This document shows positions 14,413 to 56,044 of a stretch of 64,000 nucleotides of DNA, piece by piece. Location: NCBI RefSeq assembly GCF_000340215.1, contig NW_006921545.1, forward strand, positions 587,522 to 651,521, in the 5' to 3' direction. The notes under the pieces were generated by a model. That model was not told where the DNA came from, made no database searches, and saw only the letters and a program-made list of their open reading frames with translations. The DNA comes from Pseudocercospora fijiensis CIRAD86. Lineage: Eukaryota > Ascomycota > Dothideomycetes > Mycosphaerellales > Mycosphaerellaceae. Position numbers and translations under genes: made by a program. Positions within the stretch are counted from its first letter, which is position 1, and every line of letters begins with the position of its first letter.

Positions 14413-14413
14413 A
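14375..14413 (+). CDS. Possible 12-codon upstream ORF overlapping the main start
   Basis: An ATG at 14375 opens a 12-residue frame whose TAA at 14411-14413 shares its last A with the ATG of the main gene (TAATG). If the mRNA starts upstream of 14375, this would couple termination to reinitiation. Translation is not shown by the sequence alone. Confidence 0.35.
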   Translation: MNLIGAHTSSRS

Positions 14414-15894
14414 TGTTATCACCGCCACGTCTGCGAGCCGCCGACGACAAACATCCCCAGACGCAGCACGGCGCGCACTCGCCATCGCCGCCTGTGCCTG
14501 GGCCCCTGCCACCGCCTTCGCCACCCCCGTCACACTCGTCGCATGCGCCCTCGCCAGTAGCAGCAGCAACACCATCTCCACCGCTCTCGCCTCTTTCGTA
14601 TTCAGCATATAACACCGTCTTGCACACCCTGCACTCCCATTTTCGCAGTCTTCCCGAGCAAGGCGCAAATCAACACCAGGAATTCAGCCTTCCGTACCCC
14701 GCCTTTGAGCGCCTCTACCAGCGATACCTCGACCCAGACTCACGACAGCCAGCGACAGAATTCGACCACTGGTGTGCGCAGAAGCTGCGATGGGATTACG
14801 ATCCCGAGCGGGAGAAAGTGGTTCTGCGAATGCCCAATGCTATCCACGAGGTCTTGATTGAGCGGGTTCGCGGCGCGATTTGGCAAGGGAAGGAGGAGCT
14901 GGCGAGTGAACTGGAGAAGAGCCATAACGAAAGAGCCTGCGCCGAGGTCGCCCACACCGATGTCAGTGGCGGAGATGCTTCTGGGAATGGCAGTGGCAGT
15001 GGCAGCGGCAGCGGCAGCGACAAGGTCGAAGGATGCCGCTTGCCTGTCGCAGCCGCTCTAACAGCAGAGCTCCGGAATGTCGACTCGACGGGCAGCACGA
15101 ACTTGAGATTTACGAACGAAAGCGGCGCACAACCTAACAGATACGAATACAGCCCCGACGCGACGTTCACACATCAAGACGCACCATATCCAGCCCTGGT
15201 TCTTGAGGTAGCGTACTCGCAGTCGTCCAAGAGCCTCAAAAACCTCGCATACGACTACATCGAGAGGTCCGAATGCCACATTGCTTGCGTGGTTGGCATC
15301 CAGCTTTCATACAACGAACCTAGCAAGGGAGGCGCACTCGATTCAAAGCGCGATCAGACTGCGAACTTCAGCATCTGGCGGTCAGCGCTTGACGAGAATG
15401 GTGATGGCTACTGCGAGTGTGTCTGTGACAGCGTCTTGTTCCGAGAGGCGGATGGCACTCTGCTAGCCGATGCCCCGCCTATCGAGCTCCGCGTTTCCGA
15501 TATCATCCCGTCATCGATTCTGGATGATTGCTGCCCTCCAGATCACGAGCTTCGAGGCGCTTTGTTCGCCACCATCACTCCGATACAACTCGGCGAATTT
15601 CTCGAACGGGCTGAGAAGCACCAGAAAAGCCGGAGAAGGCGTCCTGCGCGCCAATACGGACAGGCGGGGCAACGCAGGACAAGAAAGAGGCAGCGCACTC
15701 CAGAAGAGGAGCTTTCTGATGATCGAGAAGGCAAGTACAAGCGACTCGAGGATGCGGCCTGGGCTCGCGAGAAGCAGGAAGACGGAACATACACCGGACG
15801 ACGTACTCGAGAAGCACCAGATGCGTCGACAGCTGAGCCTACCCTGCAGCTGCGAACGAGTCAACGCTTGAAAGAGAAGTATAGGGAGGGATGA
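14413..15894 (+). CDS. Hypothetical protein, likely Uma2/PD-(D/E)XK-like nuclease fold
   Basis: An intact 493-residue frame of normal fungal codon use and the only undamaged gene here. The start is the first ATG after an in-frame TAG at 14401. Residues 18-60 are Pro/Ser-rich and disordered. Residues 61-170 read like an ordered domain (SAYNTVLHTLHSHF, FERLYQRYL). Residues 193-202 are a Gly-Ser repeat. The core at 243-300 has YSPDATF (D249), then LVLEVAYSQS (E265) and K276 in a following helix with DYI. That spacing resembles the Uma2-type PD-(D/E)XK arrangement, in which the lysine has moved to the helix. A basic cluster at 406-427 (RRRR, RRTRKRQR) could be a nuclear signal. The fold is inferred from motif spacing; nuclease activity is unproven and the cellular role unknown. 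No intron is needed. Confidence 0.85.
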   Translation: MLSPPRLRAADDKHPQTQHGAHSPSPPVPGPLPPPSPPPSHSSHAPSPVAAATPSPPLSPLSYSAYNTVLHTLHSHFRSLPEQGANQHQEFSLPYPAFERLYQRYLDPDSRQPATEFDHWCAQKLRWDYDPEREKVVLRMPNAIHEVLIERVRGAIWQGKEELASELEKSHNERACAEVAHTDVSGGDASGNGSGSGSGSGSDKVEGCRLPVAAALTAELRNVDSTGSTNLRFTNESGAQPNRYEYSPDATFTHQDAPYPALVLEVAYSQSSKSLKNLAYDYIERSECHIACVVGIQLSYNEPSKGGALDSKRDQTANFSIWRSALDENGDGYCECVCDSVLFREADGTLLADAPPIELRVSDIIPSSILDDCCPPDHELRGALFATITPIQLGEFLERAEKHQKSRRRRPARQYGQAGQRRTRKRQRTPEEELSDDREGKYKRLEDAAWAREKQEDGTYTGRRTREAPDASTAEPTLQLRTSQRLKEKYREG

Positions 15895-17222: not shown

Positions 17223-17230
17223 CTTAGCGC
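17223..17230. repeat. hAT target-site duplication, left
   Basis: CTTAGCGC, repeated exactly at 27097-27104. Eight bases is the hallmark length for hAT transposons. Confidence 0.92.
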
Positions 17231-17250
17231 TAGACCCCGTAGTAGTTCGG
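17231..17250 (+). repeat. hAT left terminal inverted repeat
   Basis: TAGACCCCGTAGTAGTTCGG, identical to the reverse complement of 27077-27096. Followed by GGTTTGG/GTTTAG-type repeats. Confidence 0.93.
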
Positions 17251-17660
17251 GTTGGTTTGGTTTAGTTTGCTAAGCTAAAACTCTAGTTTAGTTTAGGTTG
17301 GTTTGCTAAGCAACTATATAAGTAGCTAGTTCGAACTATATAATTTATCGGTTTTTAAGAAGTGTACGAATGTATACGTAGCTTTAAGCAAGCCCTTTAT
17401 AAGACTTAGTAGTATAGCCGGTAGCGTAGCCGGTATTTTTAGTCCTTAGTACTTATAGAATTTTCGAATCCTACTTAGGCTACGTAGTTGTATAAAGGTA
17501 CTTATATAACCTCAAATCTATAGACAATTAGCTAAGGGCACTAACTAATTAAAAGCATATATATATATATAAGGCATTATAGTTCAGTTCGGAAACTACA
17601 CTCCTTAGGTATAAATTTCATCCTTTCGTTTACGGTTTAATTCCCTAACTGCTTAGTAGA

Positions 17661-18140
17661 ATGTCTTTATCTAGATCTAGGTAGAACTTATCGATTTCCG
17701 TCGAAGCTCTCCTTAAGAAGTTCTAGCACTTTCCTACTATACTATACTCTAATATTAAGTACTAGAATAGCTCCTCCCTCGATATTAGTACTATATACGA
17801 AACAGCTATAAGGTAGCTCTATAGGGCGTTCTACTAGTTACTCGCTATACTACGGCCGAATACTAGTTCGTTCCTTAGAACTCTAGGTTATTTAGTAGAT
17901 ATTAAGGATAGGGTAGGTAGTAACTTCGTATTATATAAGGAAGTAGAGGCTACTATAGAGGAGTCCTTTAACCTATAGAAGATAGTAAAAGATATAGAGG
18001 CAGCTATAGGTCTAGGTACCTAGTTGAATTTCTAGTAGGTAGAGTATAAGGATATTTAGTAGGAGTATTAGGTAGAGTTGCGAAAGCAGGTATATAATAT
18101 AGTCTAGAGAATAGGGATAATGCCTATAACTATAAGTATT
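17661..18140 (+). pseudogene. Small unidentified cargo frame in the hAT element
   Basis: ATG at 17661 opens a frame reading MSLSRSR, interrupted only at codons that fit mutated Gln or Trp, for roughly 150 residues. It contains a charged helical stretch (KDRVGSNFVLYKEVEATIEE) near 17908-17970. I do not recognise the family. It is the only cargo gene placed on the plus strand near the left end. Confidence 0.45.
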
Positions 18141-18479
18141 AGGTTCTTCAATCTTCCTCCTTTTTTCCTTGTTTTCTTTTTATAAAAATCCAAACTAATA
18201 CAAATTAACTAGAATATCTATCTTCTTTTAGTTCTTTATAAGACCTAGTAGCGTAGCCGGCAGCGTAGCCGGTAGCGTAGTCGGCCTTTTTACTCCTAAG
18301 CACTAACGGGTTTTTCGAAGACTTCTATTCTATACGGCTAATAAAGCATACTATACTGTATAGGTATGCTTAGAGAGTATTTAGAGCGCGGTATATAGCG
18401 CCGTATAATAGCGGCTTATTTCGTATATAGAAAAGCTTGTAGACGATACTACGAATATCCTTCCTACTAGTATATCTAT

Positions 18480-19141
18480 CCTATCTAGTACTATCTCGAA
18501 TATAGACATTCTAGCCTTTTAGAATCTAATCGAGTGCTTTAAAATCCTTGTCTATAATCGTTATACGCTTCGCGTAGATAGCTATAAGGTTAACCGCTAA
18601 AATAGTATTAGTATAGTCCGAAAAGAGGTAGAAGAGAAACATATATTCGAAGATACGAACTAGGTAGGCTTCTATAGCCTCTTAAAGGGCGTCTATCGCG
18701 GAGGCTTAGAAGCGAAGGTCCGTTCTATAAACCTAGGCAATTTCGCGAATAAGTCGTCGGAAAGGAGCTTTACGGATTAGGAGCTTAGAACTCTTCTAAT
18801 ACTACCGAATCTTACGGAGGGCTACGGCTAAAGAAGGATTAGTAAAAAGACAGTAAGAATACCGGCTACGCTACCGGCTATAAATAGGACTTACTTCCTA
18901 GGCGCTATCGACGCTTCGTACAATTGCTACTAGTAGCAGAAGCGCTAGTTATCGTCTTACGTAGAGCCTTGCCCGCCGTTGTCTTACGCGGAGCCTTACT
19001 CGCGACGCCCTTTCTAGTACCGGAGCTAGCGGCAGTAGTAGCAGCCCTCTTACGTTAATATACTATACTCGTTCTATTATTTCCGGTCTTATTACGACCC
19101 GTAGAAGCAGTAGGTCCCTTCTTGCGAGGCGTCGTAACTTA
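18480..19141 (-). pseudogene. Histone H3-like gene A, two introns, RIP-degraded
   Basis: Read on the minus strand, the tail near 19040-18905 gives TRKGVASKAPRKTTAGKA, matching the H3 tail pattern ARKSTGGKAPRKQLASKA. Intron 1 (18828-18894) has a GTAAGT donor, an ACTAAT branch site and TTTAG acceptor. Splicing it joins LG to TVALRKIR, exactly the H3 PGTVALREIR junction. The fold follows: LLIRKAPFRRLIREIA, then DLRF-x-ASAIDAL-x-EAIEAYLVRIFE. Intron 2 (18597-18644) has ATATGT, a RIP-mutated GTATGT, plus a TACTAATA branch site and TTTTAG. Splicing restores VNLIAI-Y-AKRITI. Stops sit at Gln codons. Start codon not found; boundaries approximate. It would encode a nucleosomal H3 variant; function in the transposon unknown. 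Confidence 0.85.
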
Positions 19142-19509
19142 ATTAAGTAGACTCGGTATTGTAAAAGTCGTCGAATTAAGGAAAAAAGTGCGTTACGAAG
19201 GTATACGAAGGCGCGCGCGGAGCGAGGGTATTACGGAGGTAGTAGATATAGAGCGTAGAGGTATAGGTATCGATACGAAGGTTAAATATAGCGAGAGAGG
19301 TAGTATCGCGGTATCGCTAGGTAATAGAGTAAGCTTCGCGTAAGCCTATATTATAGTAACGTTAGAGCAAGGAAAGAAGGCAGGTACGGCTAAAAAAGGC
19401 AGGTACGGCAGACTTTGAAATATAGCCGGCATATATAGCCGGTATAGTAATAGGCGAAAGCCTCCTTTTAATAAATAGCCGGTGTAATAATAGTATCCTA
19501 CTATAGTAT

Positions 19510-20408
19510 AGATATTCTTTAGTAATGCCTTTACTAGCTATAGTAATCTTATAAGTAACCTAGGCCTATTGCTAGTAAATATGAGAAATATTAGGTAGGC
19601 TATACTAAATAAGCTAGTTATTTAGTAGGAAAAGGCCTACTACCGTCTCTATATACCGGCTACGAGTGCCGGCTATCGCTCTAAATTCAACTCCGCCCTA
19701 TCTCGGAGGCTAAGGTACCGAGCGGAAACCCTATAGCTTATATTCACTCGGTTATCGCGGAGCGCTTATAGGTAAGGTATTAGAAAAGAGTATAAAAAGT
19801 ACGAGAAGAGTATCCTAGGATATAGGTCGTAAGTAAATAAGAGTAGTACGCCTAGTTATTTATATAGTACGTTACTCTATACGACTAAGAGCCTATATTA
19901 TCTTATACTTCGCTTATAAGACCTCGACTCTACTAGTATACTATCGATCTCCTCCTCGGTCGCTAATACGCTATCTTAATTCTTCTTCGAGTTGCCGGAC
20001 TTAGTGCGTATCTATAGCTATACAATAGCGCTACGTATTATAGAGAATCAACTCCGCCGTATCTCGAAGGCTAAGGTACCGAGCGGAAATCCTATAGCTT
20101 ATATTTACTCGGTTGTCGCGGAGCGATTATAGGTAAGGTATTAGAAAAGAGTATAAAAAGTACGAGAAGAGTATTCTAGGATATAGGTCGTAAGTAAATA
20201 AGAGTAGTACGCCTAGTTATTTATATAGTACGTTACTCTATACGACTAAGAGCCTATATTATCTTATGCTTCGCTTATAAGACCTCGACTCTACTAGTAT
20301 ACTATCGATCTCCTCCTCGGTCGCTAATACGCTGTCTTAATTCTTCTTCGAGTTGCCGGACTTAGTGCGCATCTATAGCTATACAATAGCGCTACGTATT
20401 ATAGAGAA
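19510..20408 (+). pseudogene. Unidentified cargo region with 361-bp tandem duplication
   Basis: A plus-strand frame such as QLRPISEAKVPSGNPIAYIH from 19688 is broken only at codons that fit Gln/Trp, but a minus-strand reading is not excluded. The block 19687-20047 is repeated in tandem as 20048-20408. I do not recognise the protein. GCCGG motifs sit just upstream at 19655-19676. Confidence 0.4.
19687..20408. repeat. Two tandem copies of a 361-bp unit
   Basis: Unit 1 is 19687-20047 and unit 2 is 20048-20408, both starting TCAACTCCGCC and ending TTATAGAGAA. They differ at only a few bases, mostly C/T or G/A, showing the duplication arose before or during RIP. Confidence 0.93.
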
Positions 20409-20799
20409 TTTCTCGTTAAAGTTTCTCTCTCGTAGGCTTACTATCTACCTCGTAGTATAGAGGATTAAAGTGCTAATACTAAAGAATCTCCTTATAGTTA
20501 GGATACTAGGGCTTCTTAGGACCTTTGTGTTTTAGGTCTAAATAGAGACGTATTATAAACGTTCTATCGCCCTTTTGCTTACTACCCGCTAGGTCGCGAT
20601 ATACGAAGAAACTAATCTAAATGTAGCTCGTCTCTATAATAGCCGGGTAAATATAGAGCGCTAGGTTTCTACTTCGTACCTTAGATTTAGGGACGGCGCG
20701 GAGATAAAATCAGAAATATAGCCGGTACCTATAGCCGGCAAAAGGATGCGAAAATAGGCCTCCTCCTAGGTTAATCTAACGACTAAATATAATTTCTAA
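20409..20799. other. Sequence between the duplication and H3-like gene B
   Basis: Contains GCCGG motifs at 20720-20739. A minus-strand frame near 20440-20690 is open apart from Gln-like stops but has no recognised domain. Confidence 0.35.
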
Positions 20800-21267
20800 C
20801 TAACCCGCTATAAACCGACGCCGAATTTTAGCTAGAAGCTATATATCTTTATTTTAAAGAGTAACCCGCTTCGTATAGATAGTAAGGAGGTTTAAAAGCT
20901 TAAGCTCGGTTACGAGAAATGCCTCCGTAGCTTCCTAAAGAGTACTAATCGCCTTAGCCGTAAATCGCATACTAGACCGAAAATCTAATATAATTTCTCG
21001 GACGAGTCGCTAGAAGGGAGTCTTAGGGATTAAAAGCTCGGTCCCTCTTTTGTTTTAGAAAAGCCGGATCTAGCGAAGGGTAATAGTACCTAGTTTAAAG
21101 CGCCGCTTCTTTATCGTCGAGTCCTGCTTTGTTCCCTTTCTTTTAATAGAAAGATAACTTTTCTTCGCGATAGTCTTCGTTCGCCTACTCTTTTTAGCCT
21201 TCTCCTATCTACCTATAGCCTTCTTATTTTTCGGTACTGTTTTCCGAGGAACCCCCTTCCTTCGTAT
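20800..21267 (-). pseudogene. Histone H3-like gene B, intronless, RIP-degraded
   Basis: One uninterrupted frame of 155 codons plus stop (TAG at 20800-20802). The start at 21265-21267 reads ATA, as ATG would after RIP, followed by RRKGVPRKT. A Lys/Arg-rich tail leads into KKRRFKLGTITLR (H3 pattern KKPHRYKPGTVALR), ELLIPKTPF-x-RLVREI, DFRSSMRFTAKAISTL, EATEAFLV, LLTIYTKRVTL and NKDI-x-LLAKIRRR. Internal stops fall where H3 has Gln. The tail is about 17 residues longer than canonical H3 (136 residues in all), and two extra residues (NKRG against KS) lie in the alpha-N region. Loop 1 has canonical length, so it is not an obvious CENP-A. Sequence differs strongly from gene A. Confidence 0.87.
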
Positions 21268-21752
21268 ATACTATAGAGAGCCTTACTCTTCCGATATCTC
21301 GTTCTCGCTACGGTCTCCCTATACTTAGCTTACTTTACCCTTGCCCTTTAGCCTCTAAAGATATTTATCTACGCGTTTAGGCGACGAGGGTATATCGGTA
21401 GGACCTAGAAAATTAATAAGTATATAATCGTAAGGAGATATTAATGCTTCTTACCTTCTAGAACAAATAGTCTTCTATTAAACCGCCTTAGTAGGTTATC
21501 GTTAGATTCGAATAAAGGATAGTAGCTTAAGGAAGGGGAGGTAGCCGGCTTAGGAAGGCCCGAAGAGCCGAATCCTTAAGGTATATTTGTCTTTAAGAAT
21601 ATAGGGAAAGGGAAGAAGGAGAGGAAGAGCGAATAGAGAATTAGAAATAGTCCGTAGGTAAGCGGGGTCGGTTACTATAGCAACTAGTCTGTTTAGGTCC
21701 TAGGAATTCGAAATACATTTCGGATATATACCGGCTATATACGCCGGCTATA
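21268..21752. other. Spacer between H3-like gene B and the transposase
   Basis: Likely 5' region of gene B and 3' region of the transposase, both on the minus strand. A GCCGG motif lies at 21542 and a pair at 21731-21750. No separate gene seen. Confidence 0.4.
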
Positions 21753-24710
21753 TTACCTTATACGTAAACGCTTCGTCTCCTTAAAGCTACTCTAAGCCTA
21801 TATACGTTTCCGCTTCTCGACCTAGTATCGCCTTCTACCTCCGCCCTCCTCCTCTTTATTATCGCTAATTAGGGTTTCGCTTAGACTAAATTTCGTATTC
21901 TCTTCGCGCTCCTAGGTTTCTTCGATCTTAAGGTTTTCTAATTCCTCGATTAACTCCTTTAGTATAATCTTTAGTAACCTACCTTAGCGATTCTAGTAGA
22001 GGAGATAGTATCGGAATACTATAATAGATTCGAAGGTAGTAGGCGAGTATATTCGATTAAAGCGGCCCTAGTAACGAGCGATACTAAAAGACCTCTTATA
22101 GCCTATACCTACGCTCGGGATAGCGAGGACGTCGCGAGCGACCGACGCTATCGTTAGAAACTTAGGCTCTAACCGCTACTATATAGCGAGAATATCGTCT
22201 CCGAATTTATCTAGAAGACCGGTAAGATCTAGAGATTATTAGCCCTCTTTCCGAGCCTACGGGTTTATACTTACTCGCGTACCGATAGAGATCGAGCTCT
22301 TCTTTATTTACTTTAGTAGTTGCTTCCTCTTCTACCTCTACTTCCTACCTACGAAATAGGTATAATATCGGAGCCTTCTAAACCTTCTTTTTCTTTATAG
22401 GAGCTGCATTTAGACTAGTTTCTTTCCGACGCTCGTAGAATATCTTTTCTAGAACAGTCTAGTAATACTTCGGCTATACCTCGTCCGCCTTCTATTCCGG
22501 CCTCTACTAGTATATATCCTTTTCTACCGGGTTAAGTAAGTACGTAACGCTATAGATATCCCCGAACGACTTAAAGGTAGTACTATAATATTTATACAAC
22601 TTAGTATAGGAGATGTCTATAGCTTTCGTTATAGCTACTTTCTAGGGAACGCTCTTCTTAGCTAGCTTAGCTACGGTTTCCTCGAGCTCGTTAAAGAGCT
22701 AGTTATAGTACGTAAAGATAAGGTAGATCGTCGGTCCTCGGGTTCTTCTAATCGTAGTAGTAACCTTCGCGTAATGCTTACTAATATCGACGAGATACTC
22801 TACTTAGCGCTATTCGGCGGCGGTAAGGCCGAGCTACTTAATACCCTCGGAACTCTAATAGATCTCGAGAGCGGTACGTAAAGTATATCCCCTCGTAACT
22901 ATATAGAAAGTCGAATCGAACCGGGTCTTAACGTCTTAGATAAAACGGAGGAGGCGCTAAGGAGGCCGCTTTTACTATCGCTTATTCTATACGATATTCT
23001 AGGTATCGGTTTTAAGGCGCTCGATTAGGTTCTTTTAAATAGCCTCGAATCGGTTATGTCTCTATAAGCTCGAGTTCGTATATATTACTAGACGACGAAG
23101 CTAGAGAAAAAGAGTTAGAACTATACTAGGTTGCTAGCTATAGGTGCCGGCTACAGACAAAAGTTATACCTTATACAAAACGAGAGCGAGGCTCTCTACC
23201 TTATCCCGTCTTATTACTATAATAAGTTTCTCGACTTTCGACTTTGCTTTATCCTTATCTAGGATCTTCTATTAGTCGTCGTTTAATAGTGCAATTTTAA
23301 GCGTCTTAAAAAGGGCTCGGATCGCGATTTAAACTATATAAGCGAGGTAGGGAAACTTCTATAGGGATGTAACTAGCAACGACGTCGGCTCCGATTTAAT
23401 AGGGCTAGGGCTGTTAATAGGCTCTTCTTTATCGTTATTATCGTACGTATTATCGTACGTATCCGGAATCGTAGCGAGCTTAATATTCGGAAGATTAAGC
23501 TAGACTATAGACCTTATAATCTCCTCTACGTACTCGACCCTATCGATACAATTAGTAATTTTAAAGACATATACGAGTGAATTATATATACAACGCCTTA
23601 TATAATATTCGATTATTACTAGCGTTATCCGTAGTAATCGAGATTAGTTTCGTTGTTACGCTAACCCTATCTATTACCGTATAGACAAGCTTCGCTATAT
23701 CCTTACTAGTATAGGAACCTAGAATTTTAGGGAATCCGATTATAAGTTCCTAGAGTTTCTAATCCGAATTAATAAAGTATAGTATAATCGAGAGAAAGGA
23801 GGCTCTTATAGTCCGGCTTAACTAGCTATCGATAGTAATAGCTACTCGGCGAGTATTACGGAGGATCTCCCGAATATCGTCTAACGTAGCCTCTTTGTTC
23901 TTTTCGAATATAATACGCTAGGTTGTCGCGCCGAGAAATAGGGGAGGGTAGTTTATAAGATATAGGTATATCTTCTATATAGACTCCCTTTCGTAGAAGT
24001 CTTCCGGAAGACCGTTTATAGCTAGCATTTCGTTTGCTAGTTGCTTAAAGTCTTCGGGGGAGAAATCGGTAGCCTTTAATCCTAGAGCTTCCTTAAGCGT
24101 AGCCTATAATAATTAGCTAGACCTCTACGGTTGATTTAAGTAGCCGGAATCTATAGCCGGAATCTGTAGCCGGCAGCTATAGCCGGCAGCTATAGCCGGC
24201 AGCTATAGCCGGCAGCTATAGCCGGCATTTTAGAAGACGTACCTCTTTCTAGAACGCTATATCTATATTAACTCTCCTCTCTCCTTAAGATTCCCGATAC
24301 CGTTTAGAATAGAGATAGTTCGTAGGCGATAAGTTCCTATCCCCTAGTTTCGGGTGTTTTAAGATTAAACCGTAGAAGTTATAGACAATTACTAGTTAAT
24401 CTTTAAGTCGAGAAGTCGTATAACGGTATAATACCCCCTCTATAAAGAACTTCTAGAATATATCTGTTCGCTCCTTACTCCCCTATCGTATCGAGTACTT
24501 CCGGAGTTTACACTCCTTTAAGCGTAAGTATAATGGGAACTATATCTTATAGACCTATTAATTGAACTGCTCTATATACTCGGGTTTCTAAAGATACGCC
24601 TAGCTAGCCTTTTCGAAGATTTCCGGGTTAATACTCGATATTCTTATATCTCCGAACAACCTTCTACTTAGACACCGTAAAGGTAAGGACTAGGTAGTAG
24701 TACTCTATAA
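21753..24710 (-). pseudogene. hAT-superfamily transposase, RIP-degraded
   Basis: Minus-strand gene ending with TAA at 21753-21755; the N-terminal limit is approximate. The N-terminal part reads LRLKECKLRKYSIR near 24500. After an intron (about 24126-24238, GTACGT donor) the catalytic core has RVAITIDS (first Asp) near 23850, SFLSIILYFINSD, KILGSYT, then ITTDNASNN (second Asp) near 23610. Near 22600 it has KAIDISYTKLYKYYS. The C-terminal dimerisation region near 22150-22000 reads IASVARDVLAIPSVG, RSFSIARY and RFNRIYSP, typical of hAT. A charged tail closes it. It would excise and reinsert the element with 8-bp duplications. Stops at Gln/Trp and at least one apparent frame change near 23570. 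Confidence 0.88.
24142..24226. repeat. Seven 13-bp units in a transposase intron
   Basis: AGCCGG starts recur every 13 bp at 24142, 24155, 24168, 24181, 24194, 24207 and 24220. The best unit is AGCCGGCAGCTAT. The array lies inside the predicted transposase intron. Confidence 0.9.
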
Positions 24711-25169
24711 TAAATTCCTACTACTAGGATTCGGAGAGGATAAATCTAGCCCTAATCGTCGTCTAGGACTCGATAGGCTCGAAGGTAAGTATACGACCTC
24801 CTCTCGACGTTGTCGCAATCTCGCTCGTATACTAGACTGTTTCGACTGTCGTCTCGTTGTTACCCTTCCTAGTATAGCGCCTAGTATATATATAATGTCG
24901 GTCGGTATGTTTTAAGGTTTCGTACGGTAAGGTAAGGACTTAGGAGTAGTAGATATATACTAGTAGCTATAGGGAAATACCCTTTCTTTTATAGTATCGT
25001 ATCGTTAGGAATAGCTAGGTAGTAAATAGCTAGCTACCTTTTTTTTTGTTTCCTAGCTACCTAACTACTAGATTTTTTTTTCCTAGCTATCCTAGCTAGC
25101 CTAACTACTAGAATTTCTTTCCTAGCTACCCTAACTACCTAAATTTTGCCTTCTATACGGCGGCTCTCT
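24711..25169. other. Upstream region of the transposase gene
   Basis: Short repeats of CCTAGCTA/CTAACTAC type at 25010-25140 with poly-T runs. No gene recognised. Probably promoter and 5' region on the minus strand. Confidence 0.35.
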
Positions 25170-26520
25170 CCTACTAACGGAACCGAGCTACTATACCTAA
25201 CGAATCTAAGCTCGTTTTTAGTCTCAATCTATCCTCTTTTAGTATAAGACACTCGATAAGCAAATACTTAGGCCGAGTCTAACTACGAAACCTAAGACTA
25301 ACTAATAGCTCTATTAACTAATCCTAATCCTCGAACTCCTTCCGCTTCTTAGTAAAGACCTTAAAGAGCGCTCGAGCTTCTTCGGGTACCTACGGAGTAG
25401 TCGAGATAAAGCCGTATCGCTAAAATAGGTAATCCTTCGGAGGCTTATATAGAGATTTAGAGAATTCTAACGCTAACCTATCCTACTAGTAGCTTAGATT
25501 CCGGATATAAGCCCTCTCTGCCTTAGTAAAGATTTCATATAGTAGTAGCACTCTGCCTTCGAGAAACGCTTTCTATTTAACTGTTAGTATCTACCGGCTA
25601 CGAACGCCGACTATATATACCGAGCATAGAATAATTACCTGTACCCCTTCCTCCTATAGTAACACTTCTGCCGTCTCTAGATACCTAGCCCCGATCGTAT
25701 TAATCGCAAGCTACTTTGCCTTTATAGACGTAAAGGCTTCGCTCTAATACTAATAAAGAAACTTCTACTCTATATCGAGGATATAAAGACGACTAGTCTC
25801 GATTCCAATCCTTGCTAGCTTTTCGTAGTAGCTTTAACTATGATTTTCTAGATTAATAGGACCTATGCCTTAGCCCTTTACTAGTATCTCGTCTCTTTGA
25901 CTATACTCGATCTACTCCTAGCGCTTATCGTCTATAGCGTTAGGCCCTAAGACTGTACCTATTACTAGATCGACGTATAGTATCTCCTCGCTTTTTTTAG
26001 TTCCTTTATTCGTAGTATTAAGCTCTATCGCGGCATCCTAAACTCTAGTATTATTGTTCTCGGCTATCTAAACATCTCCGTTACTATCGGTCGTATCGAT
26101 AGAGGTAGCGGCTATAGGTCTAAATACTATTAGTTAACGTATTAAAGAAAAATATACCGGCTATAGCTGCTAGCTACGGCCGCTAGCTAGATTAACTTAC
26201 GCTACTAGAACTTTACGCTCGAAAACTAGCCGCAATTCTTTCCTCCTCTTAGCCTTCTCTTAGGTTGTCTTCTTATTCTAACCTTCACTTTTTTCTATAG
26301 GCGCTAGCTATCGATAGAATGCCTTATTCCGCGCCTTTCTTCTCTTATCCTTAGCTCTTTTATCCTTATCTATCTTCTCCTTTCTCTCGCGGTCTCGTAC
26401 GGAATTCTTCTTTATAGAGTACTCCTCTTTAGTCTTGCGCTTTTTAGTTAGACGCTTAGGTAAAACAAACTCGCGGTCTTTAGTTCTATCTTCTATTTAG
26501 CGCGCGGCGCGCTTCTCTCT
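25170..26520 (-). pseudogene. Unidentified cargo gene of the hAT element
   Basis: Minus-strand frame, open except for Gln/Trp-like stops. It starts with a strongly basic, coiled-coil-like part (KKRKTKEEYSIKKNSVRDR near 26400). Then come DLVIGTVLGPNAIDDKR near 25980 and SRLYILDIE near 25790, a probable intron near 25570-25640 (GTAATT donor, ACTAAC before AG, GCCGG motif inside), and LALEFSKSLYKPPKDYLF near 25460. I recognise no domain. Basic and charged character would suit a DNA- or chromatin-binding partner, but that is only a guess. It is transcribed in the same direction as the transposase and both H3-like genes. Confidence 0.5.
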
Positions 26521-26662
26521 TACTATTATAAGGGAAAGGGGCGGGGGCGTAGCGTATAGTAGTTGTTATCGGTATAGGTATAGAGGAAGAAGTTGAAAGT
26601 ATAAGAATATCGCGAAGCCTTAATTGTTGCCGCCTACGTAACGTTATATAGGTAAGCTTTCG

Positions 26663-26961
26663 CAACTACGGCAACTACGCCCCGGCAATAGTAACTACGC
26701 CCTAGCAACGGCAACTACGCCCTAGCAACGGTAATAAAGCGTAGTAAATACAACCTAGTAACTATTATAGCCGGCAATCGTAGCCAGTAGTCGAATAAGA
26801 GTGTCCTTATAGCAAAACTACGCCCTAGCAACGGCAACTACGCCCTAGCAACGGCAACTACGCCCTAGTAACGGTAAAAGAGCGTAGTAAATGTAACAGA
26901 GTTACTATTATAGCCGGCAATCGTAGCCGGCAGTCGAATAAGAGTGTCCTTATAGTAAAAC
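26663..26961. repeat. Right subterminal repeat array of the hAT element
   Basis: Two tandem units with a 143-bp period (matched positions 26731/26874 and 26801/26944). Each holds 20-bp subunits CAACTACGCCCTAGCAACGG, a GCGTAGTAAAT stretch, a TAGCCGGCAATCGTAGCC motif and GTGTCCTTATAG. Such subterminal repeats are typical transposase-binding regions in hAT elements. Confidence 0.88.
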
Positions 26962-27076
26962 CAATACAGTCTCCAGTTCAAACTAGGAATCTATATAGTT
27001 CGAAAAAACCAAACCAGAACTAGGGAGCTAGTTCGCCGCTAAGAAACCAAACTATATACGTTTAGTAGTTCGGGAA

Positions 27077-27096
27077 CCGAACTACTACGGGGTCTA
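27077..27096 (-). repeat. hAT right terminal inverted repeat
   Basis: Reverse complement is TAGACCCCGTAGTAGTTCGG, identical to 17231-17250. Confidence 0.93.
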
Positions 27097-27104
27097 CTTA
27101 GCGC
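27097..27104. repeat. hAT target-site duplication, right
   Basis: CTTAGCGC, exact partner of 17223-17230. Confidence 0.92.
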
Positions 27105-31161: not shown

Positions 31162-31539
31162 TAGACCCCGTAGTAGTCCGGGTTAGTTTAGTTTGGTTTG
31201 CTAAGCCGAAATTCTAGTTTAGTTTAGTTTGCTAAGAAACTAGTATACGGACCGGTTTGCCGGCTACGTACCGGCTATAGATAAAACCCCGACCTAAAAC
31301 ACGCCGGAATACGTCTAAACAGCCTAGAACATAGATGCAACTATATAGCGTATATAATAAAGGGGCCCCGGACCCGATACGAGGTCGTCGTATATTGTAG
31401 TAGTTTAGTCGGATTCTCTCGGAAACCGGCTTAGACAAGCGGGGCAAAAAACCAAACTAGAACTAAACCGGAGGGATACCGCTAAGAAACTAAACTATAT
31501 ACGTTCTATAGTCCGTAAACCGAACTACTACCGGGTCTA
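31162..31539 (+). mobile_element. hAT-derived MITE, 378 bp
   Basis: Starts TAGACCCCGTAGTAGTCCGG and ends with its near-perfect inverse, flanked by the 8-bp duplication CCTCGTAG. Terminal repeats and the internal GCCGGCTACGTACCGGCTAT motif (31258-31278) match the 9.87-kb hAT element, so that element's transposase probably mobilised it. A short open frame inside is incidental. Confidence 0.92.
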
Positions 31540-53157: not shown

Positions 53158-53540
53158 TAGACCCCGTAGTAGTTCGGTTTACGAACTATAGAACGTATAT
53201 AGTTTAGTTTCTTAGCGGTACCCCTCTAGTTTAGTTCCGGTTTAGTTTTTTACCCCGCTAGTCTAAGCCGGTTTCCGAGAAAATCCGACTAAACTACGAC
53301 GATATACGACGATATACGACGATATACGACGACCTCGAATCGGGTCCGTAGGCCCTATATTATATACGCTATACGGTTGCATCTATGTTTCGGCGTGTTT
53401 TAGGTTAGGTTTTTGTCCGTAGCCGGTACGTAGCCGGCAAACCGGCCCGTATACCGGTTCCTTAGCAAACCAAACCAAACTAAACTAGAATTTCGGCTTA
53501 GCAAACCAAACTAAACTAACCCGGACTACTACGGGGTCTA
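53158..53540 (-). mobile_element. hAT-derived MITE, 383 bp
   Basis: Ends TAGACCCCGTAGTAGTTCGG and its inverse, same as the 9.87-kb hAT element; inverted relative to the copy at 31162. Internal GCCGG motifs at 53420-53438. It also has four 10-bp TACGACGATA-type units at 53295-53334 that the other copy lacks. Confidence 0.92.
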
Positions 53541-55821: not shown

Positions 55822-56044
55822 TATACCCCGTAGTAGTTCGGGTTAGGTTAGTTTAGTTTACTAAGCCGAAATTCTAGTTTAGTTTAGTTTAGATTACTAA
55901 GAAACCGGTATACCGACCGGTTTGCCGGCTACGTACTAGCTACGGACAAAAACCTATTCTAAAACACGTCTAAATAGCCCGAAATATAGATACAATCGTA
56001 TAGCTTATATAATATAGGGCTTCTATCGCGTCCCGGACTCGATC
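55822..56044 (+). mobile_element. Truncated hAT-derived MITE
   Basis: Starts TATACCCCGTAGTAGTTCGG and follows the 31162 MITE through the GCCGGCTACG motif to the CCCGGACTCGAT region, then homology stops. The right third and right terminal repeat are missing, so it could no longer move. Confidence 0.82.

Follow-up and report, generated by a model that had tools for sequence, protein, structure and literature searches.

The 9,866 bp element at positions 17231-27096 of the window (the whole stretch of 64,000 nucleotides from Pseudocercospora fijiensis CIRAD86 analysed here) is a hAT-type transposon mutated by RIP, most likely a copy of the H3-hAT family published for this fungus by Dhillon et al. 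in 2019. We lean towards the reading that the two histone H3-like genes inside it, H3-A and H3-B, were the element's own, once-expressed variants and not a dead retrocopy.

Structure and copies of the element

The following features delimit the element:

17231..27096, no strand: hAT-type element, S1 subfamily, RIP-mutated, 9,866 bp
17223..17230, plus: left target-site duplication CTTAGCGC
27097..27104, plus: right target-site duplication CTTAGCGC
17231..17250, plus: left 20-bp terminal inverted repeat TAGACCCCGTAGTAGTTCGG
27077..27096, minus: right 20-bp terminal inverted repeat, reverse complement of TAGACCCCGTAGTAGTTCGG
19687..20409, no strand: 362-bp tandem duplication (97% identity) between H3-A and H3-B

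These bounds, claimed in an earlier note on this DNA, are confirmed: the inverted ends show 0 mismatches over 20 bp and are flanked on both sides by an exact 8-bp duplication (CTTAGCGC and CTTAGCGC). The end sequence has 7 matches in the window at up to 3 mismatches, compared with 0 in 100 shuffles; genome-wide, at up to 2 mismatches, it occurs 444 times in forward and 443 times in reverse orientation (reversed control, 0 and 0). The 8-bp duplication is exact in 6 of the 8 S1 elements for which both ends were found (the present copy, L009, L011, L012, L015 and L016, but not L010 and L013) and, among S2 elements, in L037 but not in L041.

The earlier note had placed two H3-like genes inside a hAT-type element. 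Each of the 17 copies or stretches compared has both frames, in the same location; the set comprises the present copy, eight found by end spacing alone (L009-L016) and eight reached via histone hits (L037-L042, L055 and L056). Short elements of 378 and 383 bp share these ends but are too small to hold the histones. The data support a hAT-type element containing two distinct H3-like genes, both common to at least three subfamilies. RIP mutation was evident in every copy read, and no unmutated copy was seen among them. RIP indices are 1.91 (TA/AT) and 0.21 ((CA+TG)/(AC+GT)) in the element, versus 0.85 and 1.22 in a comparison region at 14-16 kb.

Histone identity of the two frames

Both minus-strand frames, read through stop codons, match histone H3 far above chance, as the histone profile check proposed earlier bears out. 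H3-B (20809-21267) gave E-values of 5.9e-24 against the Pfam Histone profile and 9.9e-28 against solved H3 chains; H3-A (within 18511-19159) gave 1.4e-22 and 8.9e-26, respectively. The notion that these frames are not histones, or lie outside the element, has virtually no chance of being correct: nothing was found in its support, and E-values of 1e-22 to 1e-27 together with the constant location in 17 of 17 copies or stretches already refute it. Compared with the host, whose intact H3 exon lies on C6, the read-through cores share 56 and 50 of 91 residues. Stops in the cores fall mostly in columns where host H3 has glutamine (155 of 270 stop cells in 37 rows of H3-A; 172 of 205 in 40 rows of H3-B, which come from 37 places, L019, L026 and L032 duplicating L037, L038 and L039). 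Outside these columns, stops are commonest at residues 129 and 134 of H3-A and at residue 50 of H3-B. TGA does not occur among the 629 stops in these rows, a weak point as TGA is rare in every frame here, and one of 150 genome matches does hold a TGA.

A protein search with H3-B returned 422 matches with E-values of 0.001 or lower, the best 120 of these 422 being H3-like. With H3-A, 3 histones were found, which have RW, as read by eye, and were judged unrelated. A structure model of H3-B displays four helices in H3 order, at low confidence (mean pLDDT 61.9, pTM 0.25).

Gene structure and lineages

The two genes, all on the minus strand, are laid out as follows:

18895..19159, minus: H3-A exon 1 (predicted), long N-terminal tail
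18828..18894, minus: H3-A intron 1 (predicted), 66-116 nt among rows
18645..18827, minus: H3-A exon 2, start of histone fold (GTVALRKIR...), including the loop L1 hotspot
18597..18644, minus: H3-A intron 2 (predicted), 48 nt in 35 of 37 rows
18511..18596, minus: H3-A exon 3 (predicted), end of helix 2 to helix 3
20809..21267, minus: H3-B, with a 2-residue insertion ahead of helix 1; 3' edge set by eye

The H3 identity of the frames described earlier holds, with the correction that H3-A is split by two intron-shaped inserts. Intron 1 has a GTAAGT donor and a TTAG end in 37 of 37 rows, with variable length. Intron 2 corresponds, by length and gene, to the published “16-aa insertion”, and on omission of these 48 nt H3-A matches host FEDTNLCAIHAKR without gaps. 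One of the inserts shares its phase with host intron 2 and lies a single codon away from it. The description of a retrocopy without introns therefore fails for H3-A. In H3-B, no intron was seen in the rows read, as expected of a retrocopy. The assumed start codon reads ATA in H3-B and in H3-A of the present copy, and ATG in 1 of 37 H3-A rows (L062). An ARTKQTARKS tail is absent from the H3-B rows read. Counted by eye, 26 of 37 H3-A rows retain an R-K pair and, after it, a GKAP-like stretch, much as in H3 residues 8-18, so that H3-A does not look K9-less.

In a tree including 14 of 37 H3-A and 9 of 40 H3-B rows, each gene falls on one side of a branch with support of 100/100 in the group table (drawn branch support for H3-A, 99/97), apart from cellular H3 and from host CENP-A. 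H3-A and H3-B are two separate H3 lineages present in at least three subfamilies.

Transposase and other frames

Further coding frames of the element lie on the minus strand as well:

21960..24830, minus: hAT transposase gene (approximate), with frame switches at about 24.2, 23.6 and 22.25 kb
23540-23591 and 22229-22274, minus: transposase intron candidates
22077..22193, minus: C-terminal hAT dimerisation domain within the transposase, position transferred from L035
25168..26550, minus: long read-through frame of unknown family, possibly ORF1 or the 5' part of the transposase
26120-26200 and 25573-25620, minus: intron candidates in this frame

The dimerisation domain (PF05699) scores 22.8 bits in L035 against the Pfam cut-off of 21.4, and 17.1 bits, under the cut-off, in the present copy; it was also detected at other places in the genome. 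As candidates for the RNase-H-like catalytic residues of hAT transposases, stretches ITIDS and TDNASNN were read by eye. In a Pfam search of six read-through frames of this copy only histones scored above a cut-off, and a protein search with the transposase stretch as query yielded 619 candidates, all of them with E-values above 10. DUF659 was not found in the scanned pieces of this copy. Elsewhere in the genome there are 22 DUF659 places, which were not tied to the element family.

Selection on the element histones

Selection was assessed from transversions only, counts that are blind to RIP, although silent-site estimates rest on RIP-altered codons. Columns in which neither purines nor pyrimidines reached a 75% majority, or in which rows were too few, were dropped beforehand, as were parts of L038, L039 and L040 not matching the element; L065 and L072, whose upstream sequence is foreign, were left out of tail counts. 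Between S1 and S2, the H3-A core shows fewer replacement than silent transversions (N 0.088, S 0.212; p=0.024), also when combined with H3-B (p=0.015), H3-B alone being not significant (p=0.25); a three-subfamily test gave p=0.065. Over 37 rows of the whole H3-A core there is no silent excess over replacement transversions (133 of 213 0-fold sites, 23 of 45 4-fold sites; ratio of replacement to silent about 1.2), and an initial claim of purifying selection at all H3-A sites was withdrawn after this count. Purifying selection on the element H3 genes overall is weakly supported. The H3-A introns differ between S1 and S2 by 1 transversion in 114, fewer than the exons (53 in 527), a point against the favoured reading.

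In each of 6 overlapping row sets, changes in H3-A peak in the 5-codon window of residues 76-80, at the end of helix 1 and loop L1 (scan p 0.0002-0.013). A scan contrast with third positions gave p 0.011-0.024; in 2 of the 6 row sets the excess over third positions is not significant (p 0.09 and 0.07). A cold stretch, residues 91-120, emerges if the count is limited to changes in at least 3 rows (1 of 60 versus 7 of 30 sites, p=0.004); with rarer changes included it is not significant (p 0.34 and 0.09). In 17 paired copies, residues 76-80 have 4 purine/pyrimidine haplotypes in H3-B versus 6 in H3-A, and tests by position at these residues fall short of significance for both genes (H3-A, p=0.09; H3-B, p=0.42). 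A stronger claim, of a loop L1 frozen in H3-B but variable in H3-A, was dropped following this count. Taken together, the transversion tests are weakly consistent with genes that functioned within the element, and are silent on H3K9.

Relation to published elements

The earlier note knew of no fungal hAT with such cargo. This was mistaken, and its claim of novelty falls because the element is already in print: such elements were described in 2013 (PMC3538342) and 2019 (PMC6710886). Dhillon et al. reported 784 H3-like copies in P. fijiensis, with the original H3 on scaffold 6, as one merged repeat family with DUF659 but no hAT dimerisation domain found (PMC6710886). Elements of about 9.5-9.9 kb with 20-bp ends, an 8-bp duplication and two H3-like frames, in hundreds of copies all affected by RIP, are common to both descriptions. 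These authors considered the gene a captured histone, an intronless retrocopy with a 16-aa insertion, later killed by mutation (PMC6710886). The present analysis differs in the two intron-shaped H3-A inserts, in the dimerisation domain, reported there as absent from the results and found here, in the resolution of at least three subfamilies and two H3 lineages, and in the DUF659 result for this copy. What is added to the published account is the intron-shaped H3-A inserts, the dimerisation domain, the two lineages and the hotspot at residues 76-80.

Manning et al. (2013) described a hAT with an H3-like gene, H3L, in Pyrenophora tritici-repentis (PMC3538342). By description, it likewise combines a hAT transposase, a further ORF and a divergent H3 with tail insertions that matches neither H3 nor CenH3, but it is 5.6 kb long, carries one H3 gene, and is mostly intact with ESTs (PMC3538342). 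No nucleotide similarity to it was found for the P. fijiensis family (PMC6710886).

Host-derived genes within DNA transposons are also characteristic of Pack-type capture, as in plant Pack-MULEs. Pack elements usually hold varied fragments, whereas the cargo here is in each long copy compared and is older than the subfamilies.

Origin and possible role of the histones

The published view (PMC6710886), by which a host H3 transcript or retrocopy was passively captured in the distant past and destroyed by RIP as a functionless hitch-hiker, is a possible though not the probable account. The intronless H3-B, the replacement/silent ratio over 37 H3-A rows and the RIP-mutated state of all copies read are in its favour, but it sits poorly with two intron-shaped H3-A inserts, one of them next to the host intron 2 position, with two lineages kept together through at least three subfamilies, with the replacement deficit between S1 and S2 (p=0.015-0.024), and with the clustering of H3-A changes at loop L1. 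A decoy at the DNA or RNA level, whereby H3 homology would put the host gene itself at risk of RIP or silencing and thereby discourage RIP of the element, could draw on a hint of RIP-type changes in host H3 (PMC6710886). It is most unlikely given the limited residue sharing of the cores and a nucleotide identity of 51-55%, under the roughly 80% over 400 bp needed for RIP recognition (PMC6710886).

CENP-A, also an H3 variant, has long tails and a fast, variable loop L1, and a fast L1 is seen here for H3-A. Derivation from CENP-A with centromere-histone-like action is nevertheless scarcely credible, and such an origin was rejected: the rows read, which are transposon-borne, show neither the extended loop 1 nor the RW found in host CENP-A, and the tree groups host CENP-A with cellular H3, on a long branch of unsure placement.

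The existence of ESTs for H3L of the P. tritici-repentis hAT (PMC3538342) is in favour of once-expressed variants. Under this favoured reading, transcripts of both genes would have been made during the active life of the element, those of H3-A being spliced, and their products may have paired with host H4 to form variant nucleosomes favouring expression or transposition of the element. Loop L1 of H3-A, its most variable site, is predicted to contact DNA, and its changes could represent adaptation to a changing partner, be it DNA, a chaperone or a silencing factor. Every copy examined was subsequently mutated by RIP. The chromatin role is something we infer. The purpose suggested in the earlier note, manipulation of nucleosomes or of silencing by RIP and H3K9 methylation, is speculative. 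It is tempting, if doubtful, to speculate further that hATs of Dothideomycetes possess an H3 system of their own, with a slow H3-B and a spliced, fast H3-A whose DNA-facing L1 diversifies in the manner of an arms race, so that a transposon-encoded nucleosome would protect the element against silencing by host chromatin up to the point at which RIP kills it. If our re-reading holds, a DNA transposon would have carried working histone variants over long periods, and what was published as dead cargo would become a testable case of transposon-made chromatin proteins, for which P. tritici-repentis is reported to have intact relatives.

The element and its copies

The window occupies C14:587522-651521 of a genome of 73.9 Mb in 30 contigs. 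As the earlier note had proposed, the element at 17231-27096 is delimited by perfect 20-bp inverted ends and by an exact 8-bp target duplication, CTTAGCGC, on both flanks. The accompanying remark that no described fungal hAT with such cargo was known is contradicted by the literature: a 9.5-kb hAT of Pseudocercospora fijiensis with 20-bp ends and an 8-bp duplication has been reported to carry one or two H3-like copies each, 784 in total, inactivated by RIP (Dhillon et al. 2019, PMC6710886), and a second paper describes a P. tritici-repentis hAT bearing an H3-like gene, with ESTs (Manning et al. 2013, PMC3538342). A literature search returned no third description of such an element among the matches listed. 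The element with two histone genes is real and was already known.

Features of the element in this copy
17231-27096, hAT-type element with 20-bp inverted ends
about 24.83 to 21.96 kb, minus strand, transposase
22077-22193, hAT dimerisation domain, 17.1 bits (cut-off 21.4)
20809-21267, minus strand, H3-B
within 18511-19159, minus strand, H3-A
18828-18894, minus strand, predicted intron 1 of H3-A
18597-18644, minus strand, predicted intron 2 of H3-A

Genome-wide, the end sequence was matched 444 times forward and 443 times in reverse (up to 2 mismatches; counts that take in short elements too), and a reversed control gave 0. Eight more end pairs with a spacing of 9.5-10 kb were retrieved among the matches listed. 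Copies of subfamily S1, to which this copy belongs, share 95-97% mutual identity, are strongly RIP-like (TA/AT of about 1.9), and have an exact 8-bp duplication in 6 of the 8 elements for which both ends were found; no open frame of 120 codons was present in two S1 copies checked. At least three subfamilies exist, each with both histones: S1, S2 (80-83% identical to S1), and S3 (86-89% in the longest matches).

All placeable coding of the element lies on the minus strand, and its separate frames would be joined via predicted introns. The hAT dimerisation domain, which was not identified in PMC6710886, was found here with 22.8 bits in copy L035 (cut-off 21.4). DUF659, reported in that paper, was not found in the pieces scanned, and a further frame, at 25168-26550, had no Pfam match.

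Related sequences in the window and genome

Two short elements at 31162-31539 (378 bp) and 53158-53540 (383 bp) have 20-bp ends nearly the same as those of the element, and exact 8-bp duplications, CCTCGTAG and GTTCGTTT, respectively. Being too small for genes, they are probably non-autonomous relatives. A lone end of this kind occurs at 55822, and further short elements are nested within copies L038 and L040. The diverged subfamilies are mostly found on small contigs (C11, C12, C13, C14, C17, C20, C23, C29): exact S2 ends lie on C11-C29 in 11 of 11 cases, and, provided that the numbering is the same, 10 of them are outside the 12 scaffolds named as core in PMC4981457. Of the best 9 S3 hits, 8 are on C13/C14. 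An intact 493-codon frame at 14413-15894, without a Pfam match above cut-off, lies in a 55% G+C island flanked by RIP-like stretches.

Two histone H3 lineages

With stops read through, the Pfam core histone profile matched two minus-strand stretches in one frame (joint E 3.9e-38). The histone assignment of both frames made in the earlier note was borne out for each by itself (E 5.9e-24 for H3-B, 1.4e-22 for H3-A), and the closest solved chains are histone H3 in both cases. Both genes, already taken to be part of the element, were present in 17/17 copies or stretches compared, including 3.6-kb stretches (L055, L056) and truncated copies (L038-L040); since 8 of the 17 were reached via histone hits, just this copy and L009-L016 are unselected for histones. 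A genome-wide profile search gave 772 candidates, and all of the 150 scored passed the cut-off; stops interrupt all except two, an H3 exon on C6 and a CENP-A exon on C5. The host CENP-A gene (C5:604000-609500) has at least two exons, and those read are stop-free. Positions at which host H3 has Gln account for 155 of 270 stop cells in the aligned H3-A core and 172 of 205 in that of H3-B. TGA is absent from the 629 stops of the aligned rows, rare in every element frame, and present in one of the 150 scored matches.

In an unrooted protein tree (14 of 37 H3-A rows, 9 of 40 H3-B rows), the H3-A and the H3-B sequences each group together on the same side of a branch, away from cellular H3. At least three subfamilies and two histones set apart in the tree distinguish the present picture from the published P. 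fijiensis hAT. H3-A and H3-B were both part of the element across its subfamilies.

Intron-shaped inserts in H3-A

Unlike the dead retrocopy of the published account, H3-A has two intron-shaped inserts. The 37 rows compared comprise 17 from the compared copies and 20 retrieved with an S3 piece as query, which biases the set to diverged lineages. Intron 1 starts with GTAAGT and ends with TTAG in 37/37 rows, and its length of 66-116 nt varies via a TAGCCGG minisatellite. Its joined flanks give GTVALRKIR, agreeing with host H3, and its site is one codon from that of host intron 2, in identical phase. Intron 2, which fits the '16-aa insertion' of PMC6710886, measures 48 nt in 35/37 rows and ends in TAG (36 rows) or CAG (one row). 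Its GT start is retained in three rows (L010, L015, L065), unmutated as GTATGT in L010 only, the donor of the other rows being what RIP would leave. No intron was seen in 40 rows (37 places) of H3-B. Counting both strands, TAGCCGG occurs 30 times in the 9.9-kb element, at 17415-26924, compared with 17 times in the remaining 54 kb of the window, and as judged by eye mostly clusters within predicted introns and intergenic sequence.

Possible constraint on the histone genes

RIP yields transitions only, and transversions were therefore counted. In the S1-S2 comparison, 19 replacement transversions at 216 sites and 11 silent ones at 52 were counted in the H3-A core (p=0.024), and pooling with H3-B gives p=0.015; H3-B alone (p=0.25) and the H3-A tail (p=0.43, no constraint) gave no such signal. 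H3-A and H3-B differ at 16% of 0-fold and 41% of 4-fold sites (p=0.0009), to which host history may contribute. Across the three subfamilies the test gave p=0.065, and over all 37 rows the H3-A core has no replacement deficit. Counted against a functional gene, S1-S2 transversions in H3-A are fewer in the introns (1/114, at 18597-18894) than in the exons (53/527). In the transposase, 10 of 12 transversions at 24281-24580 are at third positions of the local frame (p=0.0009 before correction, for one among some 57 windows).

Replacement changes within H3-A are unevenly placed. Residues 76-80 cover the last part of helix 1 together with loop L1, which is predicted to touch DNA. Of the 106 transversions at first and second positions (37 rows), 26 fall on these residues, against just 4 of the 55 at third positions. 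Residues 76-80 are the hottest window in 6/6 overlapping row sets (scan p 0.0002-0.013), and the contrast with third positions has p<0.05 in 4/6. Residues 91-120 show few replacement-type changes, significantly so only for changes in at least 3 rows (p=0.004; 0.09 for at least 2, 0.34 for all). Among 17 paired copies, H3-A shows 6 purine/pyrimidine haplotypes at loop L1 and H3-B shows 4, a modest contrast.

The published interpretation as a dead retrocopy seems to be incomplete. H3-A, one of the two histone genes, appears from its sequence to be intron-bearing, and H3-A and H3-B are likely to have worked as histone variants. A link to RIP or H3K9 methylation is hypothetical.
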